This document shows positions 10,271 through 17,805 of a stretch of 23,135 nucleotides of DNA, piece after piece. This DNA is from a virus: IMG/VR virus record IMGVR_UViG_3300029268_000139, positions 1 through 23,135 of that record. One strand, 5' to 3'. Below the pieces are notes generated by a model, which saw only the letters and a program-made list of their open reading frames with translations, did not search any database and was not told the origin of the DNA. Position numbers and translations under genes: made by a program. Positions within the stretch are counted from its first letter, which is position 1; every line of letters starts with the position of its first letter.

Positions 10271-10315
10271 TTAATATCTATTTATAAATAACATAAGGAC
10301 AACAATATATATTTT
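10270..10315 (+). promoter_or_regulatory. Late promoter copy B (TATA-like element)
   Basis: The 23 bases at 10270-10292 are identical to promoter copy A and begin on the last base of the MuF-like stop codon. The palindromic core TATTTATAAATA lies at 10279-10290. An AT-rich patch (AATATATATTTT) follows at about 10303-10315, the same relative place as in copy A. It precedes the protease-capsid unit, leaving only a short leader before ATG 10328. Confidence 0.68.
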
Positions 10316-14833: not shown

Positions 14834-15202
14834 ATGCCTTATAGTACACAAATAATTAACACAGTTAATAACTTTGCAACAAGCATTAATTATATAGGCA
14901 CAACCGTTGTAAGAACGCCAGTTACAAAAACTACTTCTAATAGCTATGGCGACGAGACCCTAACAGAAGGCACAGCAGAAAGCATTAATGTATATTTCAC
15001 AGTATATTCTGATGACTGGATTTATGATAAAGAAGGTAATATCAGAGGCGGTAATGCTTATATTATGTGCAAGTCAACCCAGACTATTAATTTAGATGAC
15101 AAGATAACCTATCAAAGTATTGACTATAGAGTTAAGAATGTTATCAAAAGATATGTTGGGGGGGTTTGTGTATTTCAAGATGCCAACCTATTTAGATTAT
15201 GA
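14834..15202 (+). CDS. Head closure / stopper-like neck protein
   Basis: ATG 14834 has GGGTGATAG just upstream, inside the end of the connector gene; an earlier in-frame ATG (14798) lacks a site. The 122-residue protein reads as a small beta barrel: VVRTPVTKTTSNSYGDETLT, then ESINVYFTVYS, then GNAYIMCKSTQTINLDDKITY and a closing YRVKNVIKRYVGGVCVFQDANLFRL. Short beta proteins with a KVGDxItY-like strand at this place act as head-closure (gp16-like) or stopper proteins that seal the packaged head. The assignment rests on size, fold impression and gene order. It overlaps the next gene by four bases (ATGA-type). Confidence 0.65.
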   Translation: MPYSTQIINTVNNFATSINYIGTTVVRTPVTKTTSNSYGDETLTEGTAESINVYFTVYSDDWIYDKEGNIRGGNAYIMCKSTQTINLDDKITYQSIDYRVKNVIKRYVGGVCVFQDANLFRL

Positions 15203-15612
15203 ATTTTAAAATTGATATTGACTATGCCTTGTTATTCAAACACATGCAACACGACCTAGTCAGAGAGATTGCCAGAAGGGCACCACAGTATGATATGGAT
15301 TTAATAGCCTCGCTTGCGCCACAGATAACATCTGAAGGCACACCTGTTTTAGAAATACTTGGCGAGCATTATGCTATTTACCTAGAGCGCGGGAACATAC
15401 CATTTGTGAGTGATGATACCGACAAGCTTAAGAGATGGTGCAAAGACAAACTTGGTAATGAGAATGCCTGGTATATGGTATTTCAACATATCAAGAAACA
15501 GGGTGTAAGACCACAAAAGTTTATGACGCAAACACTTAACGAAGAAATAACTCTAATTATAGCAAAAGCCCTACAACAGCCAGGGGTTGTTAAGATGTAC
15601 ATTAAAGAATAA
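15199..15612 (+). CDS. HK97 gp10-like neck/tail completion protein
   Basis: This 137-residue protein has helical ends around a short central sheet: LVREIARRAPQYDMDLIASLAP, then EILGEHYAIYLERG, and a C-terminal GVRPQKFMTQTLNEEITLIIAKAL. The R(P)QkF(m)..tl.E...ii.kAl ending is typical of the HK97 gp10 group, which follows the stopper gene and helps finish the head-tail joint. It starts inside the stop codon of the previous gene. It is the last gene of the head unit: the stop TAA coincides with the beginning of promoter copy C. Alternative: a tail terminator, but that role fits the next gene better. Confidence 0.72.
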   Translation: MNFKIDIDYALLFKHMQHDLVREIARRAPQYDMDLIASLAPQITSEGTPVLEILGEHYAIYLERGNIPFVSDDTDKLKRWCKDKLGNENAWYMVFQHIKKQGVRPQKFMTQTLNEEITLIIAKALQQPGVVKMYIKE

Positions 15613-15650
15613 TGTCTGTTTATAAATAACATAATACCCACTTATATTAT
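15610..15650 (+). promoter_or_regulatory. Late promoter copy C (TATA-like element)
   Basis: From the stop codon of the gp10-like gene onward, AATGTCTGTTTATAAATAAC (15611-15630) matches copies A and B at 18 of 20 positions. The two G-for-A changes lie before the TTTATAAATAAC core, which is unchanged. As in the other copies, a short C/A-containing spacer leads to an AT-rich patch (TTATATTATA, about 15642-15651). It precedes the tail unit and the structured leader. Confidence 0.62.
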
Positions 15651-15777
15651 ACTCCTTCCTTGTCTTACCTCTGCGGGATTCTGAAGGGTAGTCGAGAAAT
15701 CGATAGAACCCCGCATTTACTTCCAAGAGGGGGGAAAACGGAGCAAGGGAACGTGGTTATGCCAAGAGGCGAATAAT
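15650..15777 (+). ncRNA. Structured GC-richer leader RNA of the tail operon
   Basis: The stretch has about 49% G+C against clearly AT-rich surroundings, and contains no gene. The main hairpin at 15672-15715 has three stacked stems: TGCGGG/CCCGCA, a single A-C mismatch, then TTCT/AGAA, an 8-base one-sided bulge GAAGGGTA, and GTCGA/TCGAT closed by a GAAA tetraloop. It is flanked by CTCCTTCC (15652-15659), which can pair with GGAA (15733-15736) plus GGAG (15740-15743), enclosing the hairpin in a long-range stem. Near the start codon, GCC-AAGA-GGC (15761-15770) can hide the ribosome binding site, and TGG...CCA (15755-15764 region) competes for the same bases. It resembles a cis-regulatory leader or a stable small RNA. 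No known riboswitch class is recognised. Confidence 0.6.
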
Positions 15778-16464
15778 ATGGCTTATTTAAGCATAGTAAA
15801 CATAGAAAACGAGTTTTTAAACTTCCTTAGAAGTAGTGATATTTATACCATTACTGAGAGAGGTGTAACCACAGCAACTGATACTACAGTTATAACTGCC
15901 TTACCGCAGACTATAACCTTAAGCACTTCTTTGAAAAACATTAGAAGTGTTACTAATTCCAGCACAGCTTTAGTTCTTAAGCTAGGTACAAATTATACAA
16001 TGGACTTAGACGCAGGGACTATAACTATAACCTCTGGAGCAGTAGGCACTAATTCTATTGCTACTATTTATGATTCAGGAACAACAGACCATATATTCCC
16101 TGATTACCCTAGACCAAACCTGACAATTAGCTCGTTTCCGAGATGTGGGTTTGAAGTATATACCTGGTCAACAGACACTGGTGGGTTTGGCAATGTTAAT
16201 GTAACCGATTTTGGTATTGATGTAAGCTTATATGAATACGCAGATGATAGTGGCTCAGCACCACACGGTAGAAAGAAAGTTAAGCAGAGAATGGACGCTC
16301 TGAGACAGGCAATCATTACAGCACAGACAAACTTATACTATTGTAGTTATATAAAACCGCAGAATATGAGGGCTGTGGAATTATTAGATACTGATAAAGG
16401 CAAAGGAAAGATATATAAAATAAGTATAGATGTTTCAAGTAGAAACAATTATGAAATAAACTAA
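15778..16464 (+). CDS. Tail terminator-like protein with inserted beta domain
   Basis: This 228-residue protein has an N-terminal helix (VNIENEFLNFLRSSDIYT) and a C-terminal part with FPRCGFEVYTWSTDTGGFG, VNVTDFGIDVSLYEYAD, a helix with QRMDALRQAIITAQ and a last strand KIYKISIDVSSRN. Helix, sheet, long helix, strand is the plan of tail terminator proteins, which cap the tail tube and join it to the neck. About residues 28-100 form an extra Thr/Ser-rich beta segment (VLKLGTNYTMDLDAGTITI) lacking in minimal terminators. It is the first gene after the structured leader. The ribosome binding site GAGGCG (15766-15771) lies within a possible hairpin. The call is from layout and order. Confidence 0.62.
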   Translation: MAYLSIVNIENEFLNFLRSSDIYTITERGVTTATDTTVITALPQTITLSTSLKNIRSVTNSSTALVLKLGTNYTMDLDAGTITITSGAVGTNSIATIYDSGTTDHIFPDYPRPNLTISSFPRCGFEVYTWSTDTGGFGNVNVTDFGIDVSLYEYADDSGSAPHGRKKVKQRMDALRQAIITAQTNLYYCSYIKPQNMRAVELLDTDKGKGKIYKISIDVSSRNNYEIN

Positions 16465-16480
16465 AGGAGATAGATAAACC

Positions 16481-17416
16481 GTGACAGCAAATTCAACCCC
16501 GATAACTGCGGGGGTGCATTCATATTTAATATATGGAGCAGAAACAACATTTAAAACAGCAGGAACACTAGACAAGAACTTTGGGATAGTTAACAACTTC
16601 TCAGCGGATGTGAAGAATAGTCTTAACGAGCGTAGAGGCTTTGCTAATACTTCTGCAAGCGGTAGAAGGATTAGAGCATTCGCTCCAGGAGAGAGGAGTT
16701 ATGATTTATCAATAGACTGGGATGTAACGGATTTTGCATTTATGGAACATGTACTAGGTGCAGTTTCAGGGACAACAACAAAAACATATGTTGATGATGA
16801 TGCAGTTGATTCAATATCAATCGGTAACGAACTTGACAATGTCAATGTTGACAGAGAGAACTGGTTTACAGGATGCTGTTACGATTCGGTAACCTTGAAA
16901 GCAGCAATAAACGAACCACTTAATTGTTCAGCAAAGCTGACTGCAGCACATGGCAGTTTTGATGCAACATTAACTTCAAAAATTGCAGCTTCGGCAGTTG
17001 GCCCATACACGTTTGTAGGTGCGGTATTCGAGTTACCAAACGCCACAGCAATTGTTAATATTGTAGAAAGCTTTGATATTTCTATTAATAATAACTATAC
17101 CTACTTAAGAGGTAGTGCTAGAGAAATTGCCGCTGCAACCAAGGGGGCATTGGATATTACAATGAAATTTTCAACGGCGTATGTTGATGATTCGTTCTAT
17201 ACCAAAACGCTAGGTAGCGATGGTGTTAGTTCAGTAACCGCACCAACAGAGAATGCAACTGTAGAAATCACACTTACAAGAGGGTCAAGCAATGTAATAA
17301 TACTAGGAACACTTGCACCAATCGAGTCATACAACTTAGCACAACAATTGAATAGCCCAGTTAAGGAAGATATAACACTTAAGCTACAATGGATTTCAGT
17401 AGCTGAAACAGTATAA
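16481..17416 (+). CDS. Major tail tube protein
   Basis: The start is GTG 16481, with a strong AAAGGAGATAG site (16463-16473); no ATG competes. The 311-residue protein is mostly strands: GVHSYLIYGAETTFKTAG (typical lead of tail tube proteins), RSYDLSIDWDVTDFAFMEHVLGAVSG, CYDSVTLKAAINEPLNCSAKLTA, then NIVESFDISINNNYTYLRGSA and a terminal EDITLKLQWISVAE. The pair of long antiparallel strands around SFDISINNN is characteristic of tube subunits, which stack as hexamers around the tape measure. The position between terminator and chaperone is the standard one. It is likely the most abundant tail protein, in keeping with its strong ribosome binding site. Confidence 0.8.
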   Translation: MTANSTPITAGVHSYLIYGAETTFKTAGTLDKNFGIVNNFSADVKNSLNERRGFANTSASGRRIRAFAPGERSYDLSIDWDVTDFAFMEHVLGAVSGTTTKTYVDDDAVDSISIGNELDNVNVDRENWFTGCCYDSVTLKAAINEPLNCSAKLTAAHGSFDATLTSKIAASAVGPYTFVGAVFELPNATAIVNIVESFDISINNNYTYLRGSAREIAAATKGALDITMKFSTAYVDDSFYTKTLGSDGVSSVTAPTENATVEITLTRGSSNVIILGTLAPIESYNLAQQLNSPVKEDITLKLQWISVAETV

Positions 17417-17436
17417 ATATAAAAGGAGAGTAAGAC

Positions 17437-17805
17437 ATGAAAAGTATAACATTAGAAGACAAGGACAATAAACAAACCGAGGTATTCATTAGAGAATACA
17501 ACAATGAAGACCGTGAGATTATCACTAACGAGTGTGTTGAAATAGAATACTCTGCACAGGGCGGGGAGTCAAAGAAGATTAAGGGTGGAACTTTAAAGAA
17601 GTACACATTTATTTTAGGTGTGGCAAAGGCACCGTTCTTTACACAGGATATCTTAGATACACTAGGGGTTACTGATAGAATCTTAAAATCGAGAGTAGAA
17701 GAATATAAGATGGTAGACCCAAAGATTATCGATACCTTACTACCTGCAATCGCAGAGATAAACCAGATAGATGTTGAAGGCTTAGAGATTTTAAAAAAAA
17801 ACTAA
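17437..17805 (+). CDS. Tail assembly chaperone, short form (gpG-like)
   Basis: This 122-residue protein has a strong AAAGGAGAG ribosome binding site. It starts KSITLEDKDNKQTEVFIRE and ends in a helix (DTLLPAIAEINQIDVEGLEI) followed by a lysine run and stop at 17803. Size, position between tail tube and tape measure, and a slippery A-run at its very end match the gpG side of the G/GT chaperone pair that coats the tape measure during tail assembly (lambda is the model). The long form is listed separately. Sequence similarity to lambda gpG is not expected to be visible, since the family is defined more by context than by motifs. Confidence 0.75.
   Translation: MKSITLEDKDNKQTEVFIREYNNEDREIITNECVEIEYSAQGGESKKIKGGTLKKYTFILGVAKAPFFTQDILDTLGVTDRILKSRVEEYKMVDPKIIDTLLPAIAEINQIDVEGLEILKKN

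Follow-up and report, generated by a model that had tools for sequence, protein, structure and literature searches.

A small AAGN-loop hairpin as a candidate RNA operator ahead of the tail terminator gene in a group of probably archaeal tailed viruses

The locus described here raises the question of what a G+C-rich leader of 128 bases does directly ahead of a single tail gene of a virus. In the window (the whole stretch of DNA that was analysed, 23,135 nucleotides), genes for a portal, a MuF-like protein, a prohead protease, an SU10-like major capsid protein (MCP) and a connector are followed by two small genes and then by gene 15778, on the 3′ side of which lie a Phage_tube_2 tail tube, a chaperone-like gene and a tape measure. 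Judged by its modelled structure, the product of gene 15778 is the tail terminator (tail-capping protein); its best Foldseek matches were the HFTV1 tail, P74-26 neck, R4C stopper-terminator, T5 p142 and lambda gpU. Terminator proteins are needed in few copies, about six per virion. The features of the locus are as follows.

15199..15612, + strand: gene directly upstream of the terminator gene; its homologue overlaps the terminator gene in relatives without the hairpin there
15619..15628, + strand: TATA-like promoter box TTTATAAATA, third copy, an exact repeat of the copies at 1234 and 10281
15648..15650, + strand: predicted transcription start, placed by archaeal promoter geometry about 30 bases past the first base of the TATA box
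15650..15777, + strand: G+C-rich leader of the tail terminator gene, 128 bases, 49.2% G+C
15672..15715, + strand: large hairpin with an 8-base bulge and a GAAA loop, lineage-specific as far as visible
15721..15732, + strand: distal small hairpin TTCC-AAGA-GGGG, weak, with two G-U pairs; equivalents in 22-23 relatives
15760..15771, + strand: proximal conserved hairpin TGCC-AAGA-GGCG, with Shine-Dalgarno-like GAGG inside it and its end 6 bases before the ATG
15778..16464, + strand: tail terminator protein gene, 228 aa, AlphaFold pLDDT 92.3, assigned with Foldseek
16481..17416, + strand: tail tube protein gene (Phage_tube_2), without the small hairpin in front

The leader thus sits between the promoter box at 15619 and the ATG at 15778. 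Each of the three copies of TTTATAAATA stands ahead of a gene, and boxes of the kind ACAA-NN-TTTAAATA were found in many relatives, with a TATA-like box present in 36 of the 47 whose gap measures 30-300 bases. Archaeal promoters consist of a BRE and a TATA box, which these boxes fit, and the best named match of the window portal is Halorubrum tailed virus 28 (28% identity). The metagenome-assembled genomes that contain relatives include two archaeal ones but also bacterial bins, so an archaeal host is probable and not proven; homologues of the terminator and the MCP were also sought in the phyla to which the two archaeal bins belong, with few matches and no firm host as the outcome. The preliminary description held that the other two promoter copies lack such a leader, which stands as far as a G+C-rich structure is concerned but not otherwise, as the predicted leader of the copy at 10281 is about 15 bases long, while that of the copy at 1234 measures about 55 bases and has an AT-rich hairpin of its own (at 1265-1319, GACATA-UUAAU-UAUGUC, then AGGGGG, then the ATG at 1319).

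The leader and its large hairpin

The G+C content of the leader is clearly unusual, at 49.2% against 36.9% for the whole window, and only 0.33% of all 128-base windows reach this level, which bears out the composition first reported for it. Its folding is another matter, given that the 128 bases taken whole are no more stable than dinucleotide shuffles (z -0.15), so that the term "structured leader" is unsupported by stability. A pyrimidine-rich stretch, CTCCTTCC, is able to pair as had been claimed. The leader had also been said to belong to no recognised RNA class, and this agrees with a search of the window and 20 relatives against Rfam 15, in which no family reached the curated gathering threshold and the matches seen at permissive thresholds were at chance level. 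Neither a direct comparison of the leader with a phage DNA collection nor an exact-pattern scan of viral contigs gave a match, and GAASGGTAG-like letters common by eye to the window leader and that of one relative (L057) were judged to be due to chance.

The preliminary description placed its emphasis on the large hairpin. This lies exactly at 15672-15715 (TGCGGG-A-TTCT-[GAAGGGTA]-GTCGA-GAAA-TCGAT-AGAA-C-CCCGCA) and folds with the bulge and loop described for it. Its stability ranks third among 1776 sampled 52-base windows on the + strand, 4 of 200 shuffles were equally good (z -2.44), and its pairing probability is 0.79. Such local stability would favour the reading that the large hairpin is the functional element, either riboswitch-like or a protein platform, with the small hairpins as accessories. 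Further support for this possibility comes from the long-leader relatives, which carry other structured inserts between the promoter and the tandem hairpins. For instance, the inserts of L105, L140, L127 and L171 have in common a CCAG-UGAU...RUCG-CUGG stem (L105:1166, L127:2431, L140:1312, L171:429) with compensatory changes, such as CCUG/CAGG and CUGG/CCAG, and after it AUGAUU or a near match; the L140 insert is markedly stable (z -4.7). By eye only, the same type of stem was recognised in L190 and L200, upstream of matches of the pattern scan described below, while the structured inserts of L112, L121, L057 and L073 are unrelated to it.

Against this reading, a covariance model (R2) made from the large hairpin by itself and run over 0.94 Mb of related viral DNA matched only that hairpin, most relatives have no room for such a structure, and the leader as a whole is, as stated, no more stable than its shuffles. 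No homologue of 15672-15715, and so none of the conservation and covariation that would define the ligand-binding core of a riboswitch, was seen in that 0.94 Mb. We therefore consider a functional role for the large hairpin as the main element to be quite improbable. It looks like a lineage-specific insert, placed where structured inserts of other kinds are found in several relatives, and it may be another such leader domain. The conserved part of the leader consists of the small hairpins.

A small hairpin conserved as a base-paired shape

Single-sequence protein scans with the terminator, MCP and portal gave no match, and no close relatives of the virus were found in the collections searched. 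Relatives were instead reached through alignments, of which the portal alignment with HRTV-28 yielded five loci, the one built on the MCP 80, with five more in genomes, and the terminator alignment 80, with contigs partly shared among them; of the full-length terminators that could be used, the nearest has about 45-48% identity to that of the window. Ahead of the terminator genes of these relatives, short hairpins such as ACC-AAGA-GGT, TCC-AAGA-GGA and CTC-AAGA-GAG were found repeatedly. The 60 bases preceding the start contain, over all relatives, 144 hairpins in which a stem of 4 bp or more closes a 4-base loop; this loop is AAGA in 47 of them, the runner-up being AAAA with 8. An enrichment of AGAA-loop hairpins was dropped, its source being in-frame GCAGAAG codons within genes.

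The pairing of the stem was assessed in several ways. In a formal count, 97.3% of the cells were paired, against 69.9% when shuffled and 29-54% in slid controls, with 48 double (compensatory) changes against 16.9, and the tandem alignment is likewise paired and covarying. The alignment used for this count had been pre-selected for stems of at least 3 pairs, and for this reason the unbiased test is the one in which 47 distinct sequences were selected by the letters CAAGNG only, at most 35 bases from the start of the terminator gene. In these, stem pairs 2, 3 and 4 are formed in 46, 46 and 41 of the 47, respectively, with pairs 5 and 6 at chance, and all three pairs occur together in 87% before terminators compared with 9.5% of the CAAGNG occurrences elsewhere in the same genomes (n=1881). 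On a maximum-likelihood tree of 90 terminators, the 5′ letter, the 3′ letter and the pair type changed 12, 12 and 12 times for pair 2, 11, 11 and 12 times for pair 3, and 14, 17 and 20 times for pair 4. Of the main independent contrasts for pairs 2-4, 15 went in the same direction, none in the opposite one, and two showed no difference. The small hairpin of this virus group has thus been shown to persist as a base-paired shape; it is sense-oriented and stands where the translation unit of the terminator begins.

In the window, the element is represented by the proximal hairpin, whose pairing probability is 0.8. A covariance model built from 22 relatives with the window left out (R1) has a single match in the window, at 15756-15805 (E 0.0043); when 0.9 Mb is searched, the E value of this match is 0.17, and all 34 matches listed are on the sense strand. 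Tandem hairpins are found in 22-23 relatives, often as GCC-AAGN-GGC followed by UUCC-AAGA-GGAA, and the hairpin at 15721-15732 is probably the distal copy of the conserved element, with a spacing of about 27 bases in the window compared with a few in relatives and two G-U pairs in its stem. Two small hairpins had indeed been noted here, but as competing folds; both exist, and they are compatible with each other. The tandem form also precedes divergent terminators in the two archaeal bins. No such hairpin stands at the terminator of the haloarchaeal HFTV1 or at those gene starts of HRTV-28 that we inspected.

Gene specificity, position and relocation

The hairpin stands ahead of 54 of 97 terminator genes, and none was detected at the other 43. 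In every other gene family tested, the rate is 0-9%, with 0-1 cases each for portal (44), MuF (55), protease (77), MCP (78), g12448 (90), tube (79) and TMP (30), and 3 of 80 for the connector, 4 of 102 for up137, 7 of 93 for the stopper-like up134 and 3 of 34 for the chaperone. This supports the earlier idea that the leader position is specific to a tail gene. In some relatives, similar hairpins precede the chaperone-like gene that comes after the tail tube (L096:4124, L098:4750, L014:9945, L130:4407); the corresponding stretch of the window, 17416-17437, has none.

A blind pattern, GCCAAGNGGC-N3-12-TCCAAGAGGA, scanned over 2.9 million viral contigs gave 29 matches, 22 of which lie directly ahead of a terminator gene as identified by profile search, including four whose terminators are only remotely similar (E 1.8e-11, 8e-16 twice and 4.7e-22). 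Of the remaining seven, one precedes an inserted HNH endonuclease gene that lies before the terminator, one a gene that is connector-like by eye in its first residues, and five look like chance, which is about the number expected from a rough estimate. HNH endonuclease genes lying between the neighbour gene and the terminator were seen to start right after the hairpin in L116:1789-1827, L167:1797-1830 and L190:2848, as if they had taken over the start site of the element.

The position of the hairpin differs with the arrangement of the genes. It is found at the terminator in 42 of 52 genomes where this gene is separate, but in only 1 of 25 where it overlaps or abuts the upstream gene (Fisher p 5e-11); conversely, it occurs before up134 or up137, sometimes in tandem, in 4 of the 52 and in 12 of the 25 (Fisher p 1e-4), no relocated copy having been found in the remaining 12 of these 25 overlapping-gene genomes. 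Examples of a tandem pair before the stopper-like gene instead of the terminator are L023:5085-5110, L024:7023-7048 and L039:5377-5431 (ACTCGC-ANGA-GCGAGT plus ACC-AGGA-GGT). This relocation with gene overlap is the strongest hint that translation is the controlled step.

In 20 relatives, the first conserved hairpin starts 27-31 bases past the TATA-like box and would thus form the very 5′ end of the mRNA, if the start site is where promoter geometry predicts it. The same distance could be taken to favour a DNA operator, in which the short inverted repeats bind a transcription regulator at the promoter instead of folding as RNA. Nevertheless, in longer leaders the hairpins hold to the ATG and not to the promoter, many copies occupy promoterless gaps of 15-30 bases, the asymmetric loop is nearly always in sense orientation (121 C-AAGA-G hairpins against 10 antisense), and relocation tracks gene overlap, all of which make a DNA operator very improbable. 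The suggestion that the leader is an independent stable RNA is likewise unsupported, since the hairpins of relatives stay beside the start codon when leader length changes. That it holds a virus-encoded cis-regulator fares better, given that there is a cis-element in it, but selection can be demonstrated for the small C-AAGN-G hairpin and not for the large one.

A possible mode of action and its meaning

We regard it as fairly probable that these hairpins are RNA operators, in which a 4-bp C-AAGN-G hairpin placed on the ribosome binding site of the terminator gene, often in tandem, limits terminator synthesis and is probably bound by a protein. Under this proposal, 15650-15777 would be the 5′ leader of the terminator mRNA, with the operator at 15760-15771 as its core, and the hairpin would cover the Shine-Dalgarno sequence or the start codon and in this way control the initiation of translation. 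A putative protein would bind it and repress a gene whose product is required in so few copies. Protein binding is likely because the isolated stems are weak, from -3.5 kcal/mol for the window proximal hairpin through about -2 for a typical one to +0.2 for UUC-AAGA-GAA types, and because the AAG loop is kept where the Shine-Dalgarno letters have been lost.

It could also be imagined that the hairpin acts without any binder, as an intrinsic tuner or a thermometer that partly masks the Shine-Dalgarno sequence and lowers the translation of a low-copy protein. The frequent presence of GAGG or AGGAGG in the 3′ arm, the established need for few terminators and the ease with which such weak hairpins melt all agree with this. 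Simple masking, however, needs no tandem copies, nor does it account for the dominance of the AAGA loop, for the retention of AAG and stem in the UUC-AAGA-GAA types, or for their retention where a separate AGGA stands outside the hairpin, and we consider it unlikely. As for the binder of the proposed operator, a dimeric protein would suit tandem copies, and the terminator itself is one candidate. A more specific version is offered tentatively, as somewhat doubtful: across a large group of archaeal tailed viruses, the tandem AAGN hairpins of the terminator mRNA would be bound by the terminator itself, or by some other assembly protein, and terminator synthesis would be shut off once enough has been made.

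Several known systems offer partial parallels. The coat-protein operators of RNA phages (MS2/R17) are also small hairpins at or over a ribosome binding site, with a weak stem, specific loop letters and a bound protein (presumed here), but the present element belongs to a DNA virus with archaeal-type promoters, occurs in tandem before a tail terminator gene, and has an uninterrupted 4-bp stem and an AAGN loop in place of the bulged adenine and ANYA loop that coat protein binds. The pan motif likewise consists of simple hairpins, mostly in tandem, an arrangement read by its authors as suggesting a dimeric protein-binding motif (Weinberg et al. 2010, PMC2864571); it differs in its association with bacterial pantothenate operons and in the bulged A residues of its stem, compared with uninterrupted 4-bp stems at the start codon. 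Hairpins that mask Shine-Dalgarno sequences, including RNA thermometers, resemble the element in the Shine-Dalgarno-like letters often found in the 3′ arm, whereas here loop letters and stem are conserved even without such letters. No earlier description of the C-AAGN-G element was found in the literature searched, which covered few subscription papers, and literature searches for RNA-level regulation in archaeal viruses also found nothing. The hairpin looks like a previously undescribed switch for the amount of terminator.

Little is understood of how tailed viruses set the low copy numbers of their connector and terminator proteins, and there is little documentation of regulation at the RNA level in viruses of archaea. 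Here, a compact and strongly covarying RNA element marks one gene and follows its translation unit through genome rearrangement. It is short enough for direct reporter testing, and it serves as a sequence tag, in that a DNA pattern alone finds the terminator genes of very divergent viruses. If the proposed shut-off by the terminator or another assembly protein is true, it would amount to a stoichiometry-sensing control of tail assembly, which would be new for tailed DNA viruses of archaea.
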